Position numbers and translations under genes: made by a program. Below, piece by piece: positions 1-59,642 of a stretch of 60,307 nt of DNA. Below the pieces are notes generated by a model, which did no database searches, was not told the DNA's origin, and was given only the letters and a program-made list of their open reading frames with translations. The DNA comes from Candidatus Cloacimonadota bacterium. GTDB lineage: Bacteria; Cloacimonadota; Cloacimonadia; Cloacimonadales; Cloacimonadaceae. Each line of letters starts with the position of its first letter. Position 1 is the first letter of the stretch. Location of the stretch: assembly GCA_017994635.1 (NCBI GenBank), contig JAGOKK010000003.1, forward strand, positions 1 to 60,307, written 5' to 3'.

Positions 1-2073
1 TTTGAGATTACAGATTCTGCTGAAGACGTCAACCTAAACCTCAGCCTGAAAACAGAAGGTATTGAGATGGCAACCGTACGAGTATCCAGTACAGCGGAAG
101 ATGATGTGCGGGAGATCCGTCCCAGCCTGATCCGCCGGAATACCGAAGATATCAAGACCGTTGTTTCTCCGATAGAGGCGGATGTATTCCGGGCGGTGCT
201 TGCTTTGCCCGGAGTGGCCCCCATTTCAGATTTTTCTTCTGGCTTGTACGTGCGCGGGGGGTCGCCCGATCAGAATCTGATTCTTTTGGATGATATCGAC
301 GTATACAATCCCAATCACTTTGGCGGTGTCTTCAGCACTTTCAATAGTGATGCGGTGGAAAACATCGATCTCATCAAAGGAGCTTATCCTGCCAAGTACG
401 GCGGGAGGTTATCCAGCGTGTTGGACGTCACCAACCGTCAGGGAAACCGGGATCATCATCAGGGTACAGCCCGCTGGTCCTTGATCTCCACTTCTGCCAC
501 TCTGGAAGGGCCATGGCGCATCGGAAATCAGAGCGGCAGCTACATGGGATCAATCCGGCGTACCTACCTGGAATTGGTAAAGGCAGCATTTGATGAATTG
601 CCGGATTACTACTTTTATGATGGCCATGTAAAATTGAATTGGGATATCAGTACCAATGACAAGATCTCCACCAGTGCATATTTTGGTCGCGATAAACTGA
701 AGTTTGACGTGGGGCAGCTATTAAAGTTGGACTGGGGAAATCGCACTTTCACCACGCAGTGGGTGCATCTCTTCAATCCCCGGTTGTTTTCTCAATTCAT
801 CATTGCCGGCAGCGATTTTACCAGTTACTTTGATCAAGTATCCTCAGAAGGTGAAAGCGTATTTAAACGTGATAACGGCATCCAGGATCTCAGCAGCAAA
901 GCCATGCTAACCTGGCGCCCCAACAATCAGCATGAAGCAGATTTTGGCTATGAATTGAAGTTTAACAAGACCTGGCTCAAATCCAGCTCCAGCTATCAGT
1001 TTGATGAGAACTCCATGCCGAATGTAGTGGTATCGTCCCTCACCAGTAGTGCTTACGCGCAGGATACCTGGGATCTGGATGCCTTGTGGACTTTGCAACC
1101 CGGGTTGCGTCTTTCCTGGTATCAGAGCCTGGATATCAATCTGGATCAAATCCCGGATGCCTCATACGTGAATCTTGATCCGCGCTTGTCCATTCGCCGC
1201 AAGCTCAATCTGGCTGAAAGCGTCTATGCCAGCTATGGATTCTATCACCAATATCTTACCCTGCTTGCTGCCGATATCAGCACGCCCTTTGACGTATGGT
1301 TCCCCTTGGACGGGAGCTTGAAGCCGGGTAACAGCCATCACTTCCTGCTGGGTTACAAGAACCAGTTTTCGAGAGACCTGGCGCTGGATTTGGAGCTGTA
1401 TTACAAGAGCTATGATAATATCCTGGAATACGATGCGGCTACGGATTATGACTGGGACAATGAGACCGGCACCCTCTCCGATGTATTTAATCAGGGTAAG
1501 GGCTACACTTATGGAGCCGATCTCTTGCTCCGCACCTACTGGCGCGGGCTGGAAGGCTTCATAGGCCTAACATTGAGCAATACCCAGCGCAAGATAGATA
1601 ACATCAATATTGATCCCAATACTTTGCAGGCGCAGAGCTTTTATCCCAAATACGACCGTTCTTATGCCCTGTCCGTAGTACAAACCTTCAATCTCAGCCA
1701 GTTTACCGGCAAACAGGTATTGGGTTCGGACATGAAATTGGGGATCAACTTTTCCCTCAATTCCGGGCAGCCAACCGATAAACCGGAGCGGGTGTATTTT
1801 GATGGGGATGATTATCAGATCATCTCTTCTTACAAGGATCGAGACCGCCTCCCCTCATACTGCCGCCTGGATCTGAGTACCAAGTATGAATGGCAAAAAT
1901 CCTGGGGTTCGATTGAGCCTTACTTTGAGATCATAAACGTGCTGAACCGTAAGAATGTAGGCTGGCGATCCTATACCATCGGTCCCGATGACAATGGTGA
2001 TTTGGGGCTGCAAACCAGCGACAGCACGCAATTTCCCATTCTGCCTTTTGTAGGAGTGAACGTAAAATGGTAA
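1..2073 (+). CDS. TonB-dependent outer-membrane receptor, 5' end outside the window
   Basis: The frame is open from the first base, so the gene begins upstream; an internal ATG at 67 is not a credible start because the preceding codons continue the same protein. What remains is the end of a probable carboxypeptidase-like regulatory domain, then a plug domain with the VRGGSPDQN and LLDDIDVYNP motifs and IDLIKGAYPAKYGGRLSSV (about 75-130 residues in), then a long beta-strand-rich barrel ending in FVGVNVKW with an aromatic C-terminal residue. This is the architecture of Bacteroidota-type TonB receptors that import large substrates across the outer membrane. The substrate cannot be told. It overlaps the following lipoprotein gene by 7 bases, so the two are translated together and probably form a receptor/surface-lipoprotein pair. 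Confidence 0.88.
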   Translation, partial: FEITDSAEDVNLNLSLKTEGIEMATVRVSSTAEDDVREIRPSLIRRNTEDIKTVVSPIEADVFRAVLALPGVAPISDFSSGLYVRGGSPDQNLILLDDIDVYNPNHFGGVFSTFNSDAVENIDLIKGAYPAKYGGRLSSVLDVTNRQGNRDHHQGTARWSLISTSATLEGPWRIGNQSGSYMGSIRRTYLELVKAAFDELPDYYFYDGHVKLNWDISTNDKISTSAYFGRDKLKFDVGQLLKLDWGNRTFTTQWVHLFNPRLFSQFIIAGSDFTSYFDQVSSEGESVFKRDNGIQDLSSKAMLTWRPNNQHEADFGYELKFNKTWLKSSSSYQFDENSMPNVVVSSLTSSAYAQDTWDLDALWTLQPGLRLSWYQSLDINLDQIPDASYVNLDPRLSIRRKLNLAESVYASYGFYHQYLTLLAADISTPFDVWFPLDGSLKPGNSHHFLLGYKNQFSRDLALDLELYYKSYDNILEYDAATDYDWDNETGTLSDVFNQGKGYTYGADLLLRTYWRGLEGFIGLTLSNTQRKIDNINIDPNTLQAQSFYPKYDRSYALSVVQTFNLSQFTGKQVLGSDMKLGINFSLNSGQPTDKPERVYFDGDDYQIISSYKDRDRLPSYCRLDLSTKYEWQKSWGSIEPYFEIINVLNRKNVGWRSYTIGPDDNGDLGLQTSDSTQFPILPFVGVNVKW

Positions 2074-3017
2074 GATACATACTTGTCAGTCTCGTTGCCC
2101 TGTTGCTGCTTGCCGGCTGTGAGAATTACACCTCCGGTCCTCGCTTTGAAGGTGATGTGTATAGCATTGCCGGGATGCTGATCTCAGGAAAATCCATCAA
2201 TACCGAGCACCCGATTTATATTACCCGCAGCTCGGATATTGATTCTTTTGATCCCATGAACATCTTCGTTACTGAAGCCGTGGTGGAAATCACAGATCTG
2301 GACACCAATGAATCCTGGCTCTTGAGCCTGAGTGTGGATATGGAGCAAATGAAGCTGAAGTGGGTGGATCCCGCAGAGCATATCATTCAGCCTTTGCACA
2401 GCTACCGTATTGAGGTTACTATTCCCGGATATGATAAAACCATCTCAGCCCAAACGACTGTGCCGCAGGACGTAGAGGTCAATACGGACTACTTTGGACA
2501 CAACGTGCAAGGCGAAGGATTCTCGGCCGATCCGGAAAATCCAGGCTACATGCTGTATGAAGAATCTGATCTCAGATACCCCTTGGGGATAAATACCTTT
2601 GATGTGGCGGGCTCCCACAATGTGATGGTAGAAATGTTTTGCCTGGAAGAGTTTAGCACCGATCTGGAATTTACCACCGTCATTTTGGGCTCCAGCCACC
2701 CCACTGAAGATATGGAAGATGCGTATTACAGCAGCGGCGAAGGCATTCGCAGGATCAGTTTCCTGGCCAAAATGACCTCTTCTATTCAGCCCGAGCATAC
2801 TGATAATTACATAGTGCTGAGGGATTACAGGCAGGCCTTTGTCTTCTTTGGAAATTACAAGGTTTCAGCCTATATCACCGATGACAACTACTATCGATAC
2901 AAGTATATGCCGGAAGGCTATCTATATGGCGGGGTTCAGAACGCCCTGGGCTACTTTGGCTCCGCTTCGGGATCCGTTTTTTACACCAAGGTGCTAAAAC
3001 AGGCCCCGACTATTTGA
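2067..3017 (+). CDS. Lipoprotein, DUF4249-like, partner of the upstream receptor
   Basis: A 316-residue protein with a lipoprotein signal peptide: MVRY, a hydrophobic stretch and lipobox LLAGC with the acylated Cys near residue 18. The body is beta-rich, with early segments (AGMLISGK, ITRSSDID, VVEITDLD) that resemble DUF4249 proteins, which commonly sit beside TonB receptors in Bacteroidota. The ATG overlaps the end of the receptor and has AGGAG about 10 bases upstream. Its 3' end overlaps the convergent regulator gene by 8 bases. Inferred role: envelope lipoprotein that helps the receptor capture its ligand. The DUF4249 assignment is from general resemblance and is the uncertain part; the lipoprotein nature is clear. 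Confidence 0.72.
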   Translation: MVRYILVSLVALLLLAGCENYTSGPRFEGDVYSIAGMLISGKSINTEHPIYITRSSDIDSFDPMNIFVTEAVVEITDLDTNESWLLSLSVDMEQMKLKWVDPAEHIIQPLHSYRIEVTIPGYDKTISAQTTVPQDVEVNTDYFGHNVQGEGFSADPENPGYMLYEESDLRYPLGINTFDVAGSHNVMVEMFCLEEFSTDLEFTTVILGSSHPTEDMEDAYYSSGEGIRRISFLAKMTSSIQPEHTDNYIVLRDYRQAFVFFGNYKVSAYITDDNYYRYKYMPEGYLYGGVQNALGYFGSASGSVFYTKVLKQAPTI

Positions 3018-5378: not shown

Positions 5379-6308
5379 TCAAGGCTGTCTTCGCAGTAAC
5401 AGCCACATGAAAAAAGGACAGCCAATTGCCGCCGTTACTACTCCAACCGGTAACTCCATTACAGTCATGCTCTTAGCTATGAAATCAGCTAATGTGAGGA
5501 ATAGAGCACCGAGGATCAGGCACGCGGGGAAAATCTTTTTTTGCGTTCCTGGAATCATCATTCTCACAATGTGCGGAGTGATCAGACCCACAAAGCCGAT
5601 TATGCCCGCATATGATACCACGATGCCGATCAGAACGGAGCTGAGAACAAACACCTGCTTGCGCAATCTGTGTACATCGATTCCCACGCTGGCAGCGTAA
5701 TGATCGGAAGCGCTCATGATGTCCAGTGCTCTGCTTTTCAGGTACAGCCAGATCAGGATGCTGATATTCAGTACGCTGAGCCCAAGGAAGATATGCCATT
5801 CACGATAGCTGAATATTCGGCCCAGGTTACCCATCAAAGTACTCATGATCAATGCAGTATCCTCTCGATTCAAATACATGATCAGGGATATCCCACTGGA
5901 AAAGAACATCCCCACGATTACCCCCGCGATGATCAAACGGCTGCGGTCAAACATGCCGTTCTTTTGAGCCAGACGCCAGACCAGCAACATGGTAAGAATT
6001 GCACCAATGAAACCGCCCAGGGGCATCAGGACGATCAGCCCCAATGCCGCCATGAGTATGCTGCCAAACGCCGATCCCGATGAAATGCCAAGTATATAAG
6101 GCTCCGCCAGTGGATTTGCCAGCATCAATTGATACACAGATCCGATTGCCGCCAGGCTCATTCCAGTGATTACGGTCAGGCACAGCCGGGGTACTCTGAC
6201 CTGCCACAGGATGTTGGGATCGGGATTTCCCCAGAGCAGATACAGGGCAAAGATGCCCAAAGCGATTGGTAGGATCAGTATTGCCAGAGCCTTACCGGAC
6301 CTGCTCAC
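5379..6308 (-). CDS. BtuC/FecCD-type ABC transporter permease
   Basis: A 309-residue polytopic inner-membrane protein with family hallmarks of FecCD permeases: an N-terminal arm with RVPRLCLTVITG, then GSVYQLMLANPLAEPYILGISSGSAFG, and the C-terminal GIIGFVGLITPHIVR loop that contacts the ATPase. It starts with GTG and its first codon overlaps the stop of the binding-protein gene (GTGA), so the two are co-translated. Family members import cobalamin, haem or ferric siderophores. Because the adjoining binding protein is BtuF-like and the window holds a separate cobalamin module, cobalamin is the favoured substrate, but haem or siderophore cannot be excluded. No ATPase gene (BtuD/FhuC type) follows; the next gene on this strand is the sigma-54 activator after a 137-base gap. 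Confidence 0.88.
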   Translation of the reverse strand: MSRSGKALAILILPIALGIFALYLLWGNPDPNILWQVRVPRLCLTVITGMSLAAIGSVYQLMLANPLAEPYILGISSGSAFGSILMAALGLIVLMPLGGFIGAILTMLLVWRLAQKNGMFDRSRLIIAGVIVGMFFSSGISLIMYLNREDTALIMSTLMGNLGRIFSYREWHIFLGLSVLNISILIWLYLKSRALDIMSASDHYAASVGIDVHRLRKQVFVLSSVLIGIVVSYAGIIGFVGLITPHIVRMMIPGTQKKIFPACLILGALFLTLADFIAKSMTVMELPVGVVTAAIGCPFFMWLLLRRQP

Positions 6309-7156
6309 CTGATGCTATCCCTGTAGATATCATAGATTTGACTCAGTTTGCGCAGACCTTCCACGATCCTTGGTCCTGCTCTCTGGATCAGGTCGGGATT
6401 GATGCTATCTTCAAAGAAAATCATGGAATCCCTGATCGCCGGGATGTCCTGCCAGCCTTTGCGGCTTCTAATATTTTGTAGGCTGTCCTGCGAATAGCAG
6501 ATCATAATGTCTGGTTTGGCGGAGATCACATCCTCCGCTTTTACCCGGCTGTAATCTCGTTCCAGAGTGTCAAAGACGTTGTTTCCGCCTGCGATCTCGA
6601 TCAATTCACCCACAAAGGAATTGTCAGCCACGCTCATGATGGGATCGCGATAGATCTCCAGATACACCTTGGGGATGCTCTTACCGGCGTTGCTTTGCCT
6701 CAGCGCGTCAATCTCGTTTTGCATGCTTTGAACCAGGGCTTCGGCTTCTTTATCGGTTCCAGTAATTGCGCCGACACGCTTGATGCCCTCGTAGATTTCC
6801 GCCACACTCTTTGGGTAAACGCTCACCACCTGGTAACCCAGGCGTTCCAGATCCTTACTGATACCCTCTTGCTCCAGCCCAGAACTAAAGATCAAGCTTG
6901 GTTTTATGGCAATCACGTTCTCAGTTTTGATGGCTCCGAAAGCTCCCACTTTGGGGATCTTCAGCAAGCTTGGAGGATAGGTGCATTCGTCGGTCAAGCC
7001 TACGATTCGGTCTTCCAGGCCCAGGGCTGCCAGGATCTCGGCAATCTCAGGAGATAGCACCACGTAACGGATTTCATCCGTTCTCTTGTCAGCTTGTTGG
7101 CAGCTGAGACTCATCAGGATCAACAGCAGCATGATGAAACTTGTTGCTCTACGCAT
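6305..7156 (-). CDS. BtuF-like periplasmic substrate-binding protein
   Basis: A 283-residue helical-backbone binding protein of the BtuF/FhuD class. The N-terminus is a signal peptide ending MSLSC, an imperfect lipobox, so it may be lipid-anchored. Family motifs are VVLSPEIAEILAALG, IVGLTDECTYPP, KVGAFGAIKTENVIAIKPSLIF and, in the C-lobe, VLDTLERDYSRV-type and KPDIMICYS segments. These match the cobalamin-binding BtuF type better than siderophore binders. GAGGA stands about 10 bases before the ATG. It overlaps the permease gene by 4 bases. Unlike the receptor and propeller genes at 24.8 and 27.4 kb, no cobalamin riboswitch is visible in its leader, so if it does carry cobalamin it is controlled differently. 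Confidence 0.85.
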   Translation of the reverse strand: MRRATSFIMLLLILMSLSCQQADKRTDEIRYVVLSPEIAEILAALGLEDRIVGLTDECTYPPSLLKIPKVGAFGAIKTENVIAIKPSLIFSSGLEQEGISKDLERLGYQVVSVYPKSVAEIYEGIKRVGAITGTDKEAEALVQSMQNEIDALRQSNAGKSIPKVYLEIYRDPIMSVADNSFVGELIEIAGGNNVFDTLERDYSRVKAEDVISAKPDIMICYSQDSLQNIRSRKGWQDIPAIRDSMIFFEDSINPDLIQRAGPRIVEGLRKLSQIYDIYRDSIR

Positions 7157-17517: not shown

Positions 17518-20316
17518 TTACTTGGATAGTAGCATTTTGCTGGTGACAGCTTTGCCGCTATTCTGTACGCGGACGAAATAGATACCGCTGGATACAGAAT
17601 TACCCTTGGAATCGGTACCATTCCATACCACGCTGTAATTTCCACTGGTCATTTCATTGTTTACCAGAGTGGTGATTTCCTGACCCTTGAGGTTGTAAAC
17701 CTTCACGGTGGTGGGGCCACTGGTGGGTACACTGTAAGAAATGGTGGTGGTAGGATTGAAAGGATTGGGGAAGTTGCTGGCAGCCAGTGTGAGAGCGGGA
17801 TTGAGCTCGCCTTCGATTGAGGTGCCGGTGTAAACGATCGCGCGGATCATCAGCTCACCCTGAGTAAAGGAAGTCCATCCGGAACCCTGGTTGATCACGC
17901 TGTGTCCGTTTGCAGAAGTATCAACGCCGATCAAGGAAGCATTCGGAGTTTCCCTGATTCCCATGTAGAAGCTGCCATCTTCAAACACGTGCTCGCGAGG
18001 AAGCGAGATATAGTTCCATCCGAGTATCACGTTGGCGGCAGGATATTGAACCTGATCAATCTCAGTCCCCGGCATACCATTGGGTCCGTCGTTATCGAAG
18101 AGACGTACAATGATGGAGGAGGTAGAGAGAGTATGCACGTAGATTTTGGCAAACTTCGGAGTTACAGGGCCATTGTAGAAGTTGTGCAATACAGCCATTT
18201 CACGTGATGAACCAACGCTGTAACCCTGTTCGGCAGTGCCATCATCGTAGTATGATTCTCCATGCAGAGAAGGAACGACAAACGCTGTAGCGACGTTGGA
18301 ACCAGAGGATTCGTTTGCATCGTACATTGCAGTTACATAGTAGGTGTGTACTCCGCCTTCTACGTTGTTGTCGGTATAGGTGAGAACTGTAGAGGCAAGT
18401 TCATCGATCATGATGCCATCGCGATATACTCTGTAACCAGTGGTACGGGTATCTCTTACGTTGTTTTGAACATCTACTTTACTCAGTGAGCCTTCCGCAA
18501 AGGTCGGATTCTGAGGCAATTCACCCAGTACATACTCACGGCCAGCAGCGTCAGCCACGTAAACTTTGATGTTCCAGTTCCCCTCGAGTGAGGCAGCATT
18601 CATCAGAGTATCCCAACCGCCGAGGTTCAGCCAATTGCCATAACCATCTACTGTGGGACCGGCATCGATACCAGCAGGATAACCAGCTTGGGTATTGCAA
18701 CGGAAACCAGCCATGATGGATTGTCCAGCAGGAATGGTGTAAGGAGTGGTGAGAACGACTTCATTCCATTGATCCATTACAGGAGAGGTAACTACTTGAT
18801 CCACCATCAGGGTATTGGCGGAGCCTTTCCATACGCGCACTGAGTACTCGCAATTGGCTTCGTGAGGCACAAACTGGATTTTGGTGATATTCATGCCCAC
18901 ATAGGGGTAAATGCTGTTGGTTTCGCCCATGGCATCCCATTTGGCAGCCACGTCAAAATCAGCTGCGGCATTGGTGCCGATCGCGTCATCATTCTCACCG
19001 CAATACTGCAGCCAGCCTTCTTCGCCACCGCCACCGCCAGAACCGGGAGCGTCCCAATTCAGGGTTACGGTGCTGCCACTAACTTCAGCTGTCAGATTTT
19101 CGGGAGCGGCGATAAACACATCGTTGTAGATCTTGAAATCGTCGATCATGTATCCGGTGCCGATGGGGTCGTCGCTGTCGGATTGGAAATACCAGCGGAA
19201 CTTCACGGTCTGGCCGGCATAGTTTGTGATAAAGCCATCCAGAGTGTAGCTCTCAATAGCGGAACTCCACACATCAGGCGCATCGACATACACGTAGTTA
19301 CTGCCCGCAGGGTCATTGTATGGATTACTCATGGCATACCAGGTAGTACCATTATCCGGGGAGATTTCCCATCCCCAATAGTCGAGAACTGCAAGTGGTG
19401 CAGTCGCAGTGTAATCAGGATCCTCAAAATTGCCCATGATCATAAAGTCAGCCCAGATATCGCCACTGGAGGGCAGAGTGATGGAGGGGCTAACCACGTA
19501 GTTCAACATATTGGGATTGTAGGTATTTGAGGCGTTTTGATTCTTCATCACATGAGTAGGTGATGGAGCGGTGGCTTCAGTGGCAATCTGCCACAGGTCT
19601 CCACCCAGGGGAACCAGGCTGGTCCAGGTCATCTGACCGTCATCGGTACCATTATTGGTATATCCACCAAAGGAGATATCATCCACCATAAAACCGAACA
19701 TATTGGGTTGGTCGGCAGTGGCATAGGCGGGGTCAGAAGCGAAAGCGAAACGGATTTTTACGCTTTGGCCCACATAGGCAGAAAGATCGAAAGTAGCATT
19801 TGTCCATGTCGTCACTACTCCACCCCAGGCAGGAATACCAAGGCCTTCGCCATGTTCGCTACCGAAAGCAAAGGAGTTTTGGAAGTGGTAAGCGGGAGTT
19901 CCGTTGATCACGTTCCAGGTCGTGCCACCGTCCGTGGAGATGCGGATGTTGGCAGAATCCCATCCATCCCATTCTTCGTTCACCGCAGGGGTTTCTAGCC
20001 CCAGTCTCATTTTGAAGGATAGCGTAGCATTAGCTGCGCTGAGAGTACGGGCAGGTGTATCCAACACGAGGTATTGATGATCGTAATAACCACCAATGTT
20101 AGCGCCGGATGCCAGGCTGGGATCACCCATCCACCATACGTTTCCTTGAGTGTCGCCCATGGCATAAATATGCCAGTTGTTCGGGCTTTCTGCACCGTCG
20201 AAATGAGTCCAGTCACCCATGCCGGATTCAAAATCTTCATGATACGCCACCACTTCATACGCGAACGCAGAAGTGATCAGCATTACGGCCAATATTACAA
20301 GCCAATGTTTCTTCAT
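17518..20316 (-). CDS. T9SS-exported surface protein with choice-of-anchor J and FN3 domains
   Basis: A 932-residue secreted protein. A signal peptide (MKKHWLVILAVMLITSAFA) is followed by jelly-roll, choice-of-anchor-J-like units (EDFESGMGDWTHFDG near 28 and a second near 235-400, each with FMVDDISFGGY or YMIDDFKIYND). A Gly-rich linker (about 430) follows an FN3-like segment (PENLTAEVSGSTVTLNWDAP); more FN3 follows at about 640 (GYRVYRDGIMIDEL). The last 85 residues are a T9SS type A sorting domain: NFPNPFNPTTTISY, VYNLKGQEITTLVN, VVWNGTDSKGNSVSSGIYFVR. Inferred role: cell-surface adhesin or polymer-binding protein exported through the outer membrane by T9SS. AAGGAGGA stands just before the ATG. 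Flanked by a promoter candidate and a clear terminator, so it is a single-gene unit. Confidence 0.88.
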   Translation of the reverse strand: MKKHWLVILAVMLITSAFAYEVVAYHEDFESGMGDWTHFDGAESPNNWHIYAMGDTQGNVWWMGDPSLASGANIGGYYDHQYLVLDTPARTLSAANATLSFKMRLGLETPAVNEEWDGWDSANIRISTDGGTTWNVINGTPAYHFQNSFAFGSEHGEGLGIPAWGGVVTTWTNATFDLSAYVGQSVKIRFAFASDPAYATADQPNMFGFMVDDISFGGYTNNGTDDGQMTWTSLVPLGGDLWQIATEATAPSPTHVMKNQNASNTYNPNMLNYVVSPSITLPSSGDIWADFMIMGNFEDPDYTATAPLAVLDYWGWEISPDNGTTWYAMSNPYNDPAGSNYVYVDAPDVWSSAIESYTLDGFITNYAGQTVKFRWYFQSDSDDPIGTGYMIDDFKIYNDVFIAAPENLTAEVSGSTVTLNWDAPGSGGGGGEEGWLQYCGENDDAIGTNAAADFDVAAKWDAMGETNSIYPYVGMNITKIQFVPHEANCEYSVRVWKGSANTLMVDQVVTSPVMDQWNEVVLTTPYTIPAGQSIMAGFRCNTQAGYPAGIDAGPTVDGYGNWLNLGGWDTLMNAASLEGNWNIKVYVADAAGREYVLGELPQNPTFAEGSLSKVDVQNNVRDTRTTGYRVYRDGIMIDELASTVLTYTDNNVEGGVHTYYVTAMYDANESSGSNVATAFVVPSLHGESYYDDGTAEQGYSVGSSREMAVLHNFYNGPVTPKFAKIYVHTLSTSSIIVRLFDNDGPNGMPGTEIDQVQYPAANVILGWNYISLPREHVFEDGSFYMGIRETPNASLIGVDTSANGHSVINQGSGWTSFTQGELMIRAIVYTGTSIEGELNPALTLAASNFPNPFNPTTTISYSVPTSGPTTVKVYNLKGQEITTLVNNEMTSGNYSVVWNGTDSKGNSVSSGIYFVRVQNSGKAVTSKMLLSK

Positions 20317-24400: not shown

Positions 24401-24580
24401 GTTTTTATGTCCTTTTACTAATCTGATACACGGGATTACGAGACCGCTGGGCTTAGAATCCTAACGATTTTGCCAAGCTCTGAGTTTGCTGCTTTTTGTC
24501 AATTGCTTTTATGCCATACGAAGGCTATGATGGGCAGAGAAATCATTGACAAAAACAGGTAACAAGAAAAGGTTGCATTC

Positions 24581-24808
24581 GTGACTTGATGGTGCTATAC
24601 ACAGGTAATAGGGAATTCGTGAAACGAAGCGGCCTCCGCCACTGTATGCAGCATAAAGGTTTGCCGTGTCACTGTCATTTATCTGACGGGAAGGCAGGGC
24701 ATCGGCCAGGAATGGTCAAACCGCTGTGAGCCAGGAAACCTGCCAACAAGTAAGGAGCTATCCCGCGGAGTGCGGGAGGTAGGCTCGAAGCAGTTCATCT
24801 CAGGTCAC
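24581..24808 (+). promoter_or_regulatory. Cobalamin riboswitch 1, ahead of the BtuB-like receptor
   Basis: The conserved core of the adenosylcobalamin aptamer is readable in order: GGTGC, AATAGGGAA, GTGAAAC, CCGCCACTGTATGC, GTGTCACTG, GACGGGAAGGC and the B12 box GCCAGGAAACCTGCC at 24730-24744. The whole is closed by a 9-bp P1 helix, GTGACTTGA (24581-24589) with TCAGGTCAC (24800-24808), including one G-U pair. A variable side hairpin TCCCGCGGAGTGCGGGA lies at 24761-24777. The aptamer core is almost identical to copy 2 at 27122. Upstream, 24401-24580 holds opposing TTGACA hexamers (24497-24502 minus, 24547-24552 plus) and nothing else. Confidence 0.95.
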
Positions 24809-24830
24809 AACTATACAGTATGAGGTGAAC
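24793..24830 (+). promoter_or_regulatory. Shine-Dalgarno-sequestering helix of riboswitch 1
   Basis: GTTCATCTC (24793-24801) can pair over nine bases (one G-U) with GAGGTGAAC (24822-24830), which contains the ribosome site 2 bases before ATG 24833. The 5' arm shares its last two bases with the P1 strand of the aptamer, so P1 closure and the sequestering helix interact. This is the form of a translational expression platform; there is no T-run for transcription termination. The same two 9-mers recur in copy 2. Confidence 0.7.
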
Positions 24831-24832
24831 AA

Positions 24833-27043
24833 ATGAGACACAACACACGGCTACGCAGCTCGTTATGGGGGGTGGCTACCCGGATTATGCCCCCTGGGAT
24901 TTCTTGCGGTCCAGGTATAATGCTGATTGCTCTGCTAATGATTAGCGGATTGCCACTATTCGCCAGACAGATCGAGATCAGGATATTGAATACAGATCTT
25001 GAGCCGTTGGCCAATGTACGGGTGCTGGATTCCGATTCAGTGAAGCACAGTGATGAAGAGGGTCTGGTACAGCTACATGTAGATGGTGCCCAGAAGCAAT
25101 TTTCCCTACTCGGATACGAAGATCAGCGCCTGACGCTTTCCCAGATAATGGACTTGCAGGTGATCATGCAGCGCAAGGAATTGCATTATCCCACTATTCG
25201 AGTGCGGGAGCTGGAATATCGCAATCCCATCCCGGCGTTGGATGCAAAACTGATCCATCCAGATACCAATTCCGCGGCAGGCAGCACTTCGGATTTGCTG
25301 CTCACGAGCAGTTCCTTTAGTTCTTCAGATACCCGATTGATGGGTGAAGCTCAGACCATTTCGCTACTGGGGTCCTTCTCCCGCCACACCCTGGTGATGC
25401 TGGATGGCGTTGCTCTCAATGCTGCGGGTGAAGCTTTTGATTTTAGCAAGATTCCCATATCGCAGATAGAACGTATCGAGATCGTAAAGGGGAATGCTTC
25501 TGCGTATGGTGGATCAGCAGCGGTCGGCGGGATTGTAAACATCGTTAGCAAGAGTCCCGTGCGAGCCCATAGCCTGGATCTGGGTGTAAAAGGGACTTTC
25601 GGATCCTTTGATCTCCAGCGGCAGCAGTATCAGCTATCATTGCAGCGGGCGGCCTGGGCTTTTACCCTGGATTATGATCATTACTATGCTCGCAACGATT
25701 TTTCCTATAATGCCTGGTGGGATCCCGATACCTCTTACCGTCGCAACCATAATGCTAAAAAGGCGGACAATATCTTCTTCAAAGGAACTTATGAACAGGG
25801 TAGGAGTCGATTTGAGTACAGCCTGAATCAAGGCTCATTCATCCGCCAGTTGCCGGGTCCGATAAACTTTACCGATATCTACGACGATTCCCGTATGAGC
25901 GGAAGCCACTGGTATCATCATGGGGCATATACCATACAAGGGGATCAAGTGATGGGCGAAGTGAAAGTCTTTCATCACAGCGATGGCAGCGCATTTCGCA
26001 ATCTGGCTTCCTCCAATCCCATCTATCAAAGCCACTACGCTCAAAGGCAGACCAACTATGGCGGACAGGTTAGAACTACCTTCTATTATCGGCAGAGCCA
26101 CTTGGAAGGCGTCACGGAATACAAAACTATGGATTATCGCTTTATCCAGCACGATCAACATAGTGAAGTACGGGGCAGCCGGGATAATCTGGCCGTTGGT
26201 CTGCGCGCGGCGCAAAAGTATGCGATCCACATCGTGAATGCCGATACCAGACTGTCGCTCCGCAGGGATTGGGCAGAGGATACTGCTCATGATACTTGGC
26301 GTATGGAACACGGTTTCAGCTATGAAAGCGAGGTGAAATACAGCCTTAGCGGCAGCCTCGGCACCGGATTTTCTTTGCCCTCTTTGTACGATATGTACTG
26401 GATAGGAGATAGCGAGACGCAGGGAAATCCGGATCTGAAGAGCGAAAAATCATGGGGCTATCACGTAAACGCAGGTCTGGAGCATCCTGGATGGAAACTA
26501 AGCGCGGCATATTATAATAGCGAGATAGAGGATCTCATCCAATGGCGGCAGATATTTCTTTTTGGCAGCAAGTGGAAACCCTTTAATGTGGGCAAAGCGA
26601 AGATCAGAAACTATGAAGTGGAAGCCTTTTGGCAGCCACATAGACTGCTGTCCATGAAAGGCGGGGTCACATTTACAGAAGCCAAAGACTATTCCAGGGC
26701 AGCAGACGGCAGCCCCTCGGCTAGCTATGGCAAGTTTCTGAGCTACACGCCAAAGCAAAAGGCACAGATTGCACTGAAGATCGCCGATGAACAGCGAGCT
26801 TGCACTCTCTCGTGGAGCTACACGGGCGAGCAATTCAGCACTGCAGATAATCTGATCGATCCCTTGCCGGGTTTTTCCAATCTGGATTTAGATCTGCTCA
26901 GAAAGTTCCGGATTGCAGACTGGGAACTGGGAGTACAGGCAGGGCTAAGTAACCTGCTGAACGAACGTTATGAGATTTATGCCTACATTCCCCAACCGGG
27001 TTTTAATTGGAGCTTGAAACTCAGCTTGAACTACAATATCTGA
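24833..27043 (+). CDS. BtuB-like TonB-dependent cobalamin receptor
   Basis: A 736-residue outer-membrane receptor. The N-terminus is unusual: about 28 polar residues precede the hydrophobic signal core (IMLIALLMISGLPLFA), then a short carboxypeptidase-regulatory-like domain (IEIRILNTDLEPLANVRVLD), a plug (LMGEAQTISLLG, LVMLDGVALN, IERIEIVKGNASAYGGSAAVGGIVNIVS) and a 22-strand-type barrel ending with NLLNERYEIYAYIPQPG. The start is supported by GAGGTGAAC, shared with the next riboswitch-controlled gene. The upstream cobalamin riboswitch fixes the likely substrate as cobalamin or a corrinoid, which protein sequence alone could not. No TonB box is evident to me. It precedes the riboswitch-controlled propeller gene. 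Confidence 0.9.
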   Translation: MRHNTRLRSSLWGVATRIMPPGISCGPGIMLIALLMISGLPLFARQIEIRILNTDLEPLANVRVLDSDSVKHSDEEGLVQLHVDGAQKQFSLLGYEDQRLTLSQIMDLQVIMQRKELHYPTIRVRELEYRNPIPALDAKLIHPDTNSAAGSTSDLLLTSSSFSSSDTRLMGEAQTISLLGSFSRHTLVMLDGVALNAAGEAFDFSKIPISQIERIEIVKGNASAYGGSAAVGGIVNIVSKSPVRAHSLDLGVKGTFGSFDLQRQQYQLSLQRAAWAFTLDYDHYYARNDFSYNAWWDPDTSYRRNHNAKKADNIFFKGTYEQGRSRFEYSLNQGSFIRQLPGPINFTDIYDDSRMSGSHWYHHGAYTIQGDQVMGEVKVFHHSDGSAFRNLASSNPIYQSHYAQRQTNYGGQVRTTFYYRQSHLEGVTEYKTMDYRFIQHDQHSEVRGSRDNLAVGLRAAQKYAIHIVNADTRLSLRRDWAEDTAHDTWRMEHGFSYESEVKYSLSGSLGTGFSLPSLYDMYWIGDSETQGNPDLKSEKSWGYHVNAGLEHPGWKLSAAYYNSEIEDLIQWRQIFLFGSKWKPFNVGKAKIRNYEVEAFWQPHRLLSMKGGVTFTEAKDYSRAADGSPSASYGKFLSYTPKQKAQIALKIADEQRACTLSWSYTGEQFSTADNLIDPLPGFSNLDLDLLRKFRIADWELGVQAGLSNLLNERYEIYAYIPQPGFNWSLKLSLNYNI

Positions 27044-27121
27044 TTTCAGATCATATTGCGCATGGATTGTGGATACATGGAAATCCTTGACACAATTTCC
27101 ATGCCAGATAAAGATACTCAT

Positions 27122-27345
27122 GTGACTTGATGGTGCTATACACAGGTAATAGGGAATTCGTGAAACGAAGCGGCCTCCGCCACTGTATGCAGCATAAAGG
27201 TTTGCCGTGTCACTGTCATTTATTTGACGGGAAGGCAGGGCATCGGCCAGAAATGGTCAACCGCTGTGAGCCAGGAAACCTGCCAACAAGTGCTGATCGC
27301 GATCCACGGAGAGAGGGATTTGCGCAGATGTTCATCTCAAGTCAC
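27122..27345 (+). promoter_or_regulatory. Cobalamin riboswitch 2, ahead of the beta-propeller gene
   Basis: The same aptamer landmarks as copy 1, in the same order, with the B12 box GCCAGGAAACCTGCC at about 27270-27284. P1 is GTGACTTGA (27122-27130) with TCAAGTCAC (27337-27345): here all nine pairs are Watson-Crick, the single difference from copy 1 converting G-U to A-U. Over about 169 bases the two copies differ at about three positions, then diverge completely in the peripheral stem (27289-27329) before the shared platform. Upstream, 27044-27121 contains a dyad CATGGAAAT/ATTTCCATG (27076-27084, 27095-27103) whose loop holds TTGACA. The open frame across this region is accidental. Confidence 0.95.
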
Positions 27346-27364
27346 ATAAATAAACGAGGTGAAC
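27330..27364 (+). promoter_or_regulatory. Shine-Dalgarno-sequestering helix of riboswitch 2
   Basis: GTTCATCTC (27330-27338) pairs with GAGGTGAAC (27356-27364), the ribosome site 4 bases before ATG 27369. Arms are identical to those of copy 1 although the spacer between them (ACATAAATAAAC here) differs, which argues that the pairing itself is kept. Confidence 0.7.
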
Positions 27365-27368
27365 AAAA

Positions 27369-28610
27369 ATGAAAAGACTCACAATTGTCCTGGTGCTGAT
27401 GACGCTTTGTCACATCCTCCTTGCCGCAAATGTAATCTGGGTGTTAAACTCTCAATCCAGAACCCTGAGCAGAATCGAACCAGACGCAAACCATGTGAAC
27501 AACAGCTTTTCCCAATTGGGAAATGTGCCCAACAAGGTATTGGTAACCCCAGACTATCTCTATGTTGTAAACTCTGGAGATAACTCTTTACAGAAGATCT
27601 CCAAGACCAGCGGCAATACTGTAGCCAACCATTTCGTCGCCGTCAGCAGCAATCCTTGGGACGCGATCATCGATGAGGATTACATCTATGTAAGCGGACT
27701 CTTTAGTGCTAAGGTGTACAAGCTGGATAGCTCTTCTGGCCAAGTGCTGGCCGCTGTCCCAGTCGGGATCGCACCCGAAGCCATGGCGGTTGCCAATGGA
27801 AAGCTGTATGTAACTAACGCGGGTAACTATGCCCAGAACTACGCGGGCAGTTCAGTATCGGTGATTGATCTGGCATCTTTTAATGTGATTAAAACGATTA
27901 CTACAGGTCTGAATCCACAGTACATAAGGCTTTTTGACGGCTTGTTGCATGTGTCCTGCACCGGAAACTGGACTGATGTAGCGGGCGAGGTCCATGTAAT
28001 AGATCCAGAAACTGATGAGGTAGTGCATATAGTACCCATAGGTGGCTCTCCAGGCAATATCTGGATCAATGGGGATGGTCTGGCCTATGTGGCGGATGGT
28101 AGCGGCTACAGCTTCTACAGCTACGACGCCAATACATTCAGCGTGCTCAACCCTGCCAGCGCTCCTCTGCCTTATGCAGTTTCTGACCTGGCTGGCACGG
28201 CTGGGATGATCGCACTGGTCGATCCCAATTGGGGCTCAAACGCGCAAGTATCAGTCTTAGATCCTGACCTAAGCCCCAGATCCACATTTACTGTGGGGAT
28301 GATGCCTTCCGACATCAAAATGGACGTGGAACCCGTATCCGTAAGTGAACAGATCGCGCCTGTGCCACAAACACTTATCAAGGTCTATCCTTCCCCCATC
28401 CGTGCATCGGCTGAGCTGAAGTTAAAGTCTTTGGCCAGGTACGCGGGAGAATTCCGCCTCTATAACATACGAGGTGAAAGACTCTTTAAAACTCAGATTC
28501 AGGCGGGGGAGGAGAAGTCATTGAGCTTTGACCTGCCGGCAGGAGCTTATATCTACTGTTTTCAGGGATCAAACGAGCGAGCAAGTGGGAAACTCCTGAT
28601 CCTGCCGTAG
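27369..28610 (+). CDS. Seven-bladed beta-propeller with T9SS tail, probable BtuG-like cobalamin-capture protein
   Basis: A 413-residue secreted protein. A signal peptide (MKRLTIVLVLMTLCHILLA) without a proper lipobox is followed by a YncE-like propeller. Seven blade strands can be counted: VIWVLNSQSRTLSRIEP, YLYVVNSGDNSLQKIS, YIYVSGLFSAKVYKLD, KLYVTNAGN..VSVIDL, LLHVSCTGN..VHVIDP, LAYVADGSGYSFYSYD, MIALVDPNWG..VSVLDP. The last 75 residues (KVYPSPIRAS, FRLYNIRGERLF, LPAGAYIYCFQG) are a T9SS type A sorting domain. A cobalamin riboswitch controls it and a BtuB-like gene precedes it. In Bacteroides, BtuG is a riboswitch-linked surface propeller that binds cobalamin and hands it to BtuB, but as a lipoprotein. 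The BtuG-like role is inference from fold, context and control. Confidence 0.78.
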   Translation: MKRLTIVLVLMTLCHILLAANVIWVLNSQSRTLSRIEPDANHVNNSFSQLGNVPNKVLVTPDYLYVVNSGDNSLQKISKTSGNTVANHFVAVSSNPWDAIIDEDYIYVSGLFSAKVYKLDSSSGQVLAAVPVGIAPEAMAVANGKLYVTNAGNYAQNYAGSSVSVIDLASFNVIKTITTGLNPQYIRLFDGLLHVSCTGNWTDVAGEVHVIDPETDEVVHIVPIGGSPGNIWINGDGLAYVADGSGYSFYSYDANTFSVLNPASAPLPYAVSDLAGTAGMIALVDPNWGSNAQVSVLDPDLSPRSTFTVGMMPSDIKMDVEPVSVSEQIAPVPQTLIKVYPSPIRASAELKLKSLARYAGEFRLYNIRGERLFKTQIQAGEEKSLSFDLPAGAYIYCFQGSNERASGKLLILP

Positions 28611-30173: not shown

Positions 30174-30647
30174 ATGAGCACACTATTCAAGCCAGAATTG
30201 GCCAGAATCGTAGAAAGATTCGAATCCAAAGGCGACTGTCTGAACTTCATGGCCGACCTGTTGTCGGAAAGCGGGTGTCTGAGTTTTCCAGACCGCTATC
30301 TTGCGGCAGTGAAGGGTCGTGAGGAGATTATGAGCACCGGTATCGGGCGTGGGATTGCCATTCCGCATGCCCGGGACCTGACCGTAAACTGCTTGCGGAT
30401 AGCTGTTTGCAAAGTGAAGAATCCCCTCGACTTTAACTCGGTAGATGCCCAGCCGGTAAATCTGATCTTCATGATTGCCGTACCACAAAACTCTAACCAT
30501 CAATACATGCAAATCCTGCGCAACTTATCCGAGCATTTGCGGCAAGACGCGAACAGGACCATCCTGCTAAATGCAAGCACCGATATGGAGCTATATGACT
30601 ATGTGCACGCGATTGAAGATACTATTGGCAAGTCTCTGTCTGATTAG
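30174..30647 (+). CDS. PTS EIIA type-2 (PtsN/FruA-like) domain protein
   Basis: A 157-residue single-domain protein. The phosphorylated histidine is in GIAIPHARD (His65), preceded by the family's VKGREEIMSTGIGRG; a later segment, NLIFMIAVPQNSNHQYMQILRNLSEHLR, is also characteristic (the second His of the pair is in NSNHQY). It belongs to the fructose/mannitol/nitrogen EIIA family. No EIIB, EIIC, HPr or EI gene is present in the window, so a regulatory role like PtsN is more likely than sugar uptake. ATG has a weak ribosome site. Its last 47 bases overlap the following outer-membrane protein gene in another frame. Confidence 0.88.
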   Translation: MSTLFKPELARIVERFESKGDCLNFMADLLSESGCLSFPDRYLAAVKGREEIMSTGIGRGIAIPHARDLTVNCLRIAVCKVKNPLDFNSVDAQPVNLIFMIAVPQNSNHQYMQILRNLSEHLRQDANRTILLNASTDMELYDYVHAIEDTIGKSLSD

Positions 30648-31554
30648 CCTGTTGCCCCTGGCAGCTCAAAATGAGAATGCCGGGACCACGGGTTTTGACA
30701 CCTTGAAGCTATTTTACAACGCCAGGACCACGGCAATGGGTGGAGCGGTAAACGGCATTCCCAAAAATGCTGACGCCCTGGATTTCAATCCAGCGGCAAT
30801 CCTGGAAGCGGGACAACGCAGCGTTGCCACTAGCGTTATGGATCATCTGGTGGGCAGCGGGGGCGGTAGCGTGAGCTACGTGTATCCCAAAAATCGCTTT
30901 GTGGCATACGGAGCCAGCCTGCGTTACTGGAACAGTGGCAGCATAGATCGCACTGAGATCAGCGGCACCGGTGAATTGATCGAGACCGGGGAGAGCTTTG
31001 GGGCGCAGAATATAGTAGCATCAGTGACCGGGGCAAGATTTATCAGTCCTGCTCTGGATCTGGGTGGCAGCTTGAAATTTGTGTATGACAGCATAGACGA
31101 CGTCTCGGCTTCAGCCTTGATGGTGGATGTGGGGATCCTGCATCATACCGTAAACGAGAAGATCAAAGTAGGCCTTGGCGTGCGCAATTTGGGATTTCAG
31201 ACTTCCTACTATACAAATGCCAAACATGATGAATCTTTACCCACCACATACACTGCCGGGATCTCCATGCAAATGAAGGAATCCCTGCTGGCAGCGCTGG
31301 ATCTCAGTAAAGCGGCCGGGGAAAACGTCGTTGCCCGCGTGGGAATAGAACATGAATTGAATCCTGCGCTCACTCTGCGGGGCGGTTTCCGGAGCAACGC
31401 CGCCGATTACAATCTGGGTGGATGGCTGGCCTACACCAGTGGTCTTTCTCTGGGTCTGGGCTGGAAGATCAGAGATTTTGATCTGGATTACGCCATGGCA
31501 TCCTACGGTGATCTGGGCATCGCCAATCAAATTACTCTACGCTATAATTATTAA
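30601..31554 (+). CDS. PorV/PorQ-family outer-membrane barrel protein
   Basis: About 317 residues. Signal peptide MCTRLKILLASLCLISLLPLAAQ, then the family signature (FDTLKLFYNARTTAMGGAV, DALDFNPAAI) and amphipathic strands with glycine-rich turns to the end (FDLDYAMASYGDLGIANQITLRYNY). PorV-like proteins are FadL-fold barrels; PorV itself is the T9SS shuttle that hands cargo to the attachment machinery. I place the start at ATG 30601, with GGAG about 10 bases upstream; ATG 30595 is an alternative. Either start lies inside the EIIA gene, an overlap of about 50 bases implying coupled translation. Whether this member works in T9SS or in another envelope task cannot be told. Confidence 0.82.
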   Translation: MCTRLKILLASLCLISLLPLAAQNENAGTTGFDTLKLFYNARTTAMGGAVNGIPKNADALDFNPAAILEAGQRSVATSVMDHLVGSGGGSVSYVYPKNRFVAYGASLRYWNSGSIDRTEISGTGELIETGESFGAQNIVASVTGARFISPALDLGGSLKFVYDSIDDVSASALMVDVGILHHTVNEKIKVGLGVRNLGFQTSYYTNAKHDESLPTTYTAGISMQMKESLLAALDLSKAAGENVVARVGIEHELNPALTLRGGFRSNAADYNLGGWLAYTSGLSLGLGWKIRDFDLDYAMASYGDLGIANQITLRYNY

Positions 31555-59531: not shown

Positions 59532-59642
59532 GGTGCCCGGGGAATAGCCCCGAGGGGGCGACATTTCATAGCCCGGGGTGTAGCGAAGCGTAACCCCGGG
59601 ATAAAGCGCCGGGGCTCTATCAAGCCCCGAAGGGGCGTCATT
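59532..59642. repeat. REP cluster on the 3' side of the transposase
   Basis: GGGGGCGACATTTCATAG, the 29-base hairpin CCCGGGGTGTAG...AACCCCGGG (59572-59600), and ATCAAGCCCCGAAGGGGCGTCATT (59619-59642) follow one another. The same parts appear in inverted orientation on the other side of the transposase (60119-60217). The last unit runs to within the transposase stop codon. Confidence 0.8.

Follow-up and report, generated by a model that had tools for sequence, protein, structure and literature searches.

A BtuG homologue with a type IX secretion tail in the Cloacimonadota, and a proposed second way to tether the lid of a cobalamin receptor

BtuG, a seven-bladed β-propeller that caps the BtuB receptors of Bacteroides thetaiotaomicron, is reported to be a lipoprotein exclusive to the Bacteroidetes (PMC6143338). 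Lipoprotein-capped transporters are likewise said to be exclusive to that phylum (PMC10404256). A stretch of 60,307 nucleotides from a Candidatus Cloacimonadota genome (assembly GCA_017994635.1, contig JAGOKK010000003.1; hereafter the window) comes from outside it, and raises a question: what does a secreted β-propeller do there, encoded directly downstream of a btuB-type receptor gene, with no lipid anchor and with a C-terminal tail for the type IX secretion system (T9SS)? The answer argued for here, to which we give a probability of about 0.8, is that receptor and propeller capture corrinoids together as a BtuB-BtuG pair, whose BtuG owes its export and anchoring to T9SS and is not a lipoprotein.

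Two riboswitches and a cobalamin-type receptor

The locus reads along the plus strand. Riboswitch 1 (24573 to 24761; RF00174, 82.1 bits) occupies the leader of the receptor gene (24833 to 27043, 736 residues), and riboswitch 2 (27114 to 27301; RF00174, 79.6 bits) that of the propeller gene (27369 to 28610, 413 residues). Both matches lie far above the Rfam gathering score of 31.5, in agreement with the first-pass annotation, which had placed each gene behind its own cobalamin riboswitch. No third one turned up in the rest of the 2.1 Mb assembly, which is 92% complete. The riboswitches are 91.6% identical to each other, as against merely 55% for the 172 bp upstream of them.

Between aptamer and gene, both riboswitches are followed by a ten-pair hairpin that includes the ribosome-binding site. 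In the expression platform of riboswitch 1, folding pairs GUUCAUCUCA with UGAGGUGAAC (24793 to 24830, plus strand; −30.6 kcal/mol over 91 nt, z −3.4); ahead of the propeller gene stands a near copy of this hairpin (27329 to 27365, plus strand; z −3.35). Because the ribosome-binding site lies inside the hairpin, cobalamin control is probably exerted at the level of translation.

The receptor, described from its sequence as BtuB-like, deserves that name. Pfam finds plug and barrel domains, and the top NCBIfam match is the vitamin B12 receptor model TIGR01779, at 115.6 bits and so below its cut-off of 599.7. Foldseek returns BtuB proteins throughout ranks 1 to 8 for the receptor model: the six top matches are BtuB1-3 of B. 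thetaiotaomicron, all BtuG-capped, followed by BtuB of Escherichia coli. It differs from these known receptors in being only about 17% identical to them, in scoring under the equivalog cut-offs set for B12 receptors, and in carrying an additional N-terminal domain before the plug. It is a TonB-dependent receptor of the cobalamin type. Elsewhere in the window (67 to 3017, plus strand), another TonB-dependent receptor gene is followed by one for a DUF4249 lipoprotein-like protein; these are perhaps a separate uptake pair.

Candidate genes for inner-membrane uptake lie on the minus strand, 18 kb from the riboswitch pair, and have no cobalamin riboswitch themselves: a btuC-like FecCD permease (5379 to 6308; PF01032, 246 bits), the sole one in the genome, and a btuF-like substrate-binding protein (6305 to 7156; PF01497, 125 bits). 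BtuC and BtuF, respectively, are their top NCBIfam models, each match being below the model's cut-off. The permease is probably the inner-membrane partner of the BtuB-BtuG pair. Other families of the phylum keep btuD, btuB and btuG together, with btuC and btuF beside them; at three loci (L107, L100 and L120), an ABC ATPase gene is nearby together with btuF, btuC or both. Also present in the genome are genes for methylmalonyl-CoA mutase and for a GTPase of the MeaB type (both named from sequence by inspection), and the mutase is a likely use for the imported cofactor.

A homologue of BtuG

The AlphaFold2 model of the 413-residue protein (mean pLDDT 93.4) contains 28 propeller strands within residues 22 to 319 (27432 to 28325, plus strand), that is, four for each of the seven blades that had been counted in the sequence. 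Searched against the PDB with Foldseek, the propeller retrieves 16 consecutive chains of BtuG1, BtuG2 and BtuG3 at ranks 2 to 17 (E 1e-18 to 1e-15). With the exception of the two-domain chain 8blw_B, their TM-scores by target are 0.74 to 0.80, and the rmsd is mostly about 3 Å. The next unrelated propellers follow at E 4e-12, roughly a thousandfold weaker. The model comparison with BtuG that the first-pass annotation proposed as a check therefore came out as a match.

Sequence searches lead to the same family. Single-sequence phmmer against the PDB reaches BtuG1 chains at E 1e-11, second to 1l0q alone, and a profile built from 54 homologues reaches BtuG1, BtuG2, BtuG3 and 3dsm at E 1e-23 to 1e-19. 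The alignment with BtuG is collinear and starts at the first blade. The protein had been called a BtuG analogue; the likeness to BtuG stands and the status of analogue does not, since phmmer, the profile and a joint tree make the propeller a homologue of BtuG.

The one structure ahead of BtuG is 1l0q, an archaeal S-layer propeller of the YVTN type, which is the top PDB match by single sequence, by profile and by Foldseek E-value. Its superposition, however, is poor (rmsd 17.7, TM by target 0.64), its score derives from and is spread over the repeats, and it has no known link to B12 transport.

Charge and pocket permit a closer comparison. The propeller carries a net charge of −16; that of BtuG2 is reported as −18 (PMC10404256). 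The pocket residues compared are those that the main text of PMC10404256 names; it counts 13 hydrogen bonds without itemising them. BtuG2 numbering was transferred through 3dsm with an offset of 46, which puts all the named aromatics and Thr64 on the correct letter. Tyr239 and Tyr335 of BtuG2 correspond to W201 and W288 of the window propeller, positions that are aromatic in 54 of 54 homologues; Thr64, where the ligand-holding loop ends, corresponds to T32, a threonine in 53 of the 54. The pocket aromatics Trp194, Trp272 and Tyr316 are not retained. BtuG1, which was crystallised with cyanocobalamin (8ptd), also lacks W194 and W272, and has a phenylalanine in place of Tyr316.

Compared with BtuG1, BtuG2 and BtuG3 of B. 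thetaiotaomicron (8ptd, 8bmy, 8okv; PMC6143338, PMC10404256), then, the window propeller is alike in its seven blades, in sequence and fold, in the adjacency of its gene to btuB, in cobalamin riboswitch control, in strong negative charge, and in the aromatic, aromatic and threonine positions just named. It differs in the three missing pocket aromatics, in its home outside the Bacteroides phylum, and in its anchor.

Export, anchor and their distribution

Residues 1 to 19 (27369 to 27425, plus strand) form a Sec signal peptide, with cleavage near LLA-A by inspection and no lipobox cysteine. Behind the propeller come two further elements: a flexible linker (residues 320 to 336; 28326 to 28376, plus strand), proposed as a C-terminal tether, with pLDDT of about 50 at residues 321-330 and below 50 at 326-333; and a β-sandwich (residues 337 to 413; 28377 to 28607, plus strand), separate from the propeller in the AlphaFold2 model. 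The sandwich is a T9SS type A C-terminal sorting domain, matched by TIGR04183 over residues 339-411 at 28.5 bits (cut-off 23). The missing lipobox and the sorting domain noted at first sight are both confirmed. The score is modest, yet a chance match is ruled out, for TIGR04183 matches 54 of 54 homologues of the source phylum (E 0.01 or better). All complete homologues in the Cloacimonadota combine a signal peptide without a lipobox and a C-terminal T9SS tail; neither in them nor in the window propeller does a cysteine stand at the signal-peptide end.

The secretion machinery is encoded in the same genome: SprA at 518.6 bits (cut-off 200), PorU at 617 bits (cut-off 420), and dozens of other proteins with T9SS tails. 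The Cloacimonadota and other FCB phyla are believed to possess T9SS (PMC11285876). The propeller shares with type A cargo (PMC11285876) the Sec signal peptide and the C-terminal β-sandwich sorting domain; it differs in its proposed role, as no described cargo was found that acts as the nutrient-capturing lid of a TonB-dependent transporter. Two other genes of the window touch on this system. Downstream of the propeller, a PorV/PorQ family outer-membrane protein (30571 to 31554, plus strand; NF033709, 118 bits, cut-off 90), from a T9SS-related family, could be a component of it. The 932-residue protein encoded at 17518 to 20316 (minus strand) has a T9SS tail, contains an InhA-like MAM domain and matches fibronectin type III weakly; it is probably surface or secreted cargo.

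The lipidated cysteine and N-terminal linker of the Bacteroides proteins have no counterpart here. In lipoprotein BtuGs, 29 to 68 residues (median 38) separate the lipidated cysteine from the column of Thr64. The Cloacimonadota precursors reach this column after just 29 to 43 residues, counting the signal peptide, and therefore have no space for an N-terminal tether. Since a β-propeller usually brings its N- and C-terminus together in a single blade, a C-terminal tether could hinge at roughly the same propeller edge as an N-terminal one. Fold, homology, linkage and control are those of BtuG and the lipoprotein anchor is absent; the protein is therefore a variant of BtuG rather than a standard member.

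How general is this arrangement? About 101 of 125 genomes of the source phylum encode a propeller homologue at E below 1e-20 (113 with any match), which rules out a peculiarity of one genome or an artefact of assembly. The receptor occurs in 106 of the 125, in single copy apart from one split match. Both genes are present in 97 genomes, neither in 13, the receptor only in 9 and the propeller only in 6. The pair thus recurs across related genomes, where the first-pass annotation had suggested looking for it, and a receptor without a propeller, which would have spoken against the proposal, is rare (9 of 106, just one of those nine genomes being at least 90% complete).

Linkage was assessable at 97 loci with enough upstream sequence. 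At 59 of them the receptor gene precedes the propeller gene on the same strand by no more than 5 kb, the propeller gene has its own B12 box at 37, and one or the other holds at 92. In the window's family the propeller gene usually stands alone behind its own B12 box, often away from btuB; in other families it comes immediately after btuB. Rfam confirmed riboswitches in sampled loci, and among those samples several from outside the window's family had none at the gathering score. Five of the 97 loci (L053, L054, L056, L059 and L118) lack both a btuB in the neighbourhood and a detectable B12 box; four of the five belong to one genus, which suggests that riboswitch control was lost there.

T9SS-tailed BtuG is not restricted to the Cloacimonadota. 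In the Bacteroides phylum, homologues occur in 217 of 395 genomes drawn, and those inspected, which were chosen for long frames and so give no frequency, include 20 with a T9SS tail besides the lipoproteins. Most of the 20 are preceded by a btuB-like gene and a B12 box, with an Rfam riboswitch confirmed at three loci; TIGR04183 matches 10 of the 10 scanned, and one of them (L208) aligns with BtuG3 across the whole propeller at E 4.5e-31. The BtuG family has therefore changed its anchor, between an N-terminal lipid with linker and a C-terminal T9SS tether. A tree of 128 propellers gathers the source phylum into one clade (SH-aLRT 96), adjoining some of the T9SS-tailed homologues from the Bacteroides phylum. 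Four changes suffice to explain anchor state on this tree, whose root and direction are unresolved and in which some long branches meet.

Two side observations belong here. At L167, L170 and L171, and at their relatives L166 and L168, a lipoprotein BtuG is encoded beside a related T9SS-tailed propeller, so that both anchors occur at one locus. Acido-Lenti-1 RNA (RF01687), an RNA of unknown function, matches the window at 59546 to 59600 (minus strand) and L195 at 6242-6466; next to a btuG locus with a T9SS tail, from a different phylum, RF01687 occurs twice.

A proposed capture pair and its alternatives

The proposed mechanism would run as follows. When cobalamin is scarce, both riboswitches would free their ribosome-binding sites, and receptor and propeller would be made. 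Sec would carry the propeller across the inner membrane. Directed by its C-terminal sorting domain, the propeller would then cross the outer membrane by way of SprA, after which PorU would cut off this domain and attach the propeller to a polysaccharide or a lipid on the cell surface. There the negatively charged pocket would catch corrinoids and, as a lid on the BtuB barrel, the propeller would pass them on for TonB-driven import, with BtuF and BtuCD taking over afterward. Relative to Bacteroides, the tether would have shifted from the N-terminus (lipid and linker) to the C-terminus. The cobalamin binding, the chemistry of attachment, the lid complex and the hand-over to BtuB are steps that we infer.

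Of the other explanations, the strongest, though an unlikely one, dispenses with the lid complex: the propeller would be a corrinoid sponge, free or bound to the surface, from which the ligand diffuses to BtuB. A T9SS tether made by the C-terminal linker could indeed hold the propeller away from the receptor, and the gene's frequent separation from btuB in the window's family, where it has its own riboswitch, would suit such a role. The position of the gene directly after btuB in the rest of the phylum does not. Nor do the gene numbers (a single receptor in each genome and, as a rule, a single propeller), or the receptor model, which is nearest to BtuBs that are capped by BtuG.

Could the lid serve some other ligand (haem, a siderophore or another tetrapyrrole) and be regulated by cobalamin only? 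The cobalamin riboswitches argue against this, as do a receptor that both NCBIfam and Foldseek place nearest to B12 receptors, BtuF and BtuC models that rank top for the window's own proteins, and the retention in kind of the Tyr239, Tyr335 and Thr64 equivalents. The idea draws on the BtuG2 pocket residues that are not retained, and on the BtuF, BtuC and BtuD homologues, which fall under curated equivalog cut-offs with haem transporter models scoring close; we consider it very improbable. Finally, an unrelated YVTN-type propeller, S-layer or adhesin-like and located here by accident, as the top sequence match to 1l0q and the recognised YVTN repeats might suggest, is all but ruled out by the fold ranking with its 16 consecutive BtuG structures, by collinearity with BtuG from the first blade, and by a btuB or B12-box linkage conserved across about 100 species.

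The preferred reading remains the capture pair. A broader proposal, which we hold less firmly but still regard as fairly likely, is that the Cloacimonadota and part of the Bacteroides phylum use a second lid architecture, in which a C-terminal tether, the work of the T9SS sortase, keeps BtuG above BtuB, and that secretion route and hinge end have switched repeatedly, with at least four changes of anchor on the tree of 128 propellers.

Precedents were sought in open-access journal papers. No published description of a T9SS-anchored BtuG was found there, in keeping with the earlier remark that none was known, and no precedent joined type IX secretion with BtuB or cobalamin, or the Cloacimonadota with cobalamin. 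BtuH and DUF4465 (BtuJ) are likewise accessory surface B12 binders from riboswitch-linked loci (PMC8941943, PMC13398666). Their fold is other than this propeller, they are reported as lipoproteins (more than 70% of DUF4465) or with periplasmic signals, and those two papers describe no T9SS form of either. For Flavobacterium psychrophilum, a cobalamin riboswitch is reported to precede a TonB-dependent transporter; the passage that reports it mentions no T9SS lid.

On the reading preferred here, a B12 lid now occurs outside the Bacteroidetes, almost universal in another phylum and delivered by a different export route, and T9SS would gain a concrete role in nutrient uptake. The pair also suggests a route of corrinoid supply for methylmalonyl-CoA mutase in a poorly known phylum. 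Moreover, the two anchors would provide a natural experiment on what a lid requires: an N-terminal lipid hinge, or any tether at the propeller edge. Genes now annotated as generic β-propellers with a T9SS tail may be overlooked B12 capture proteins.
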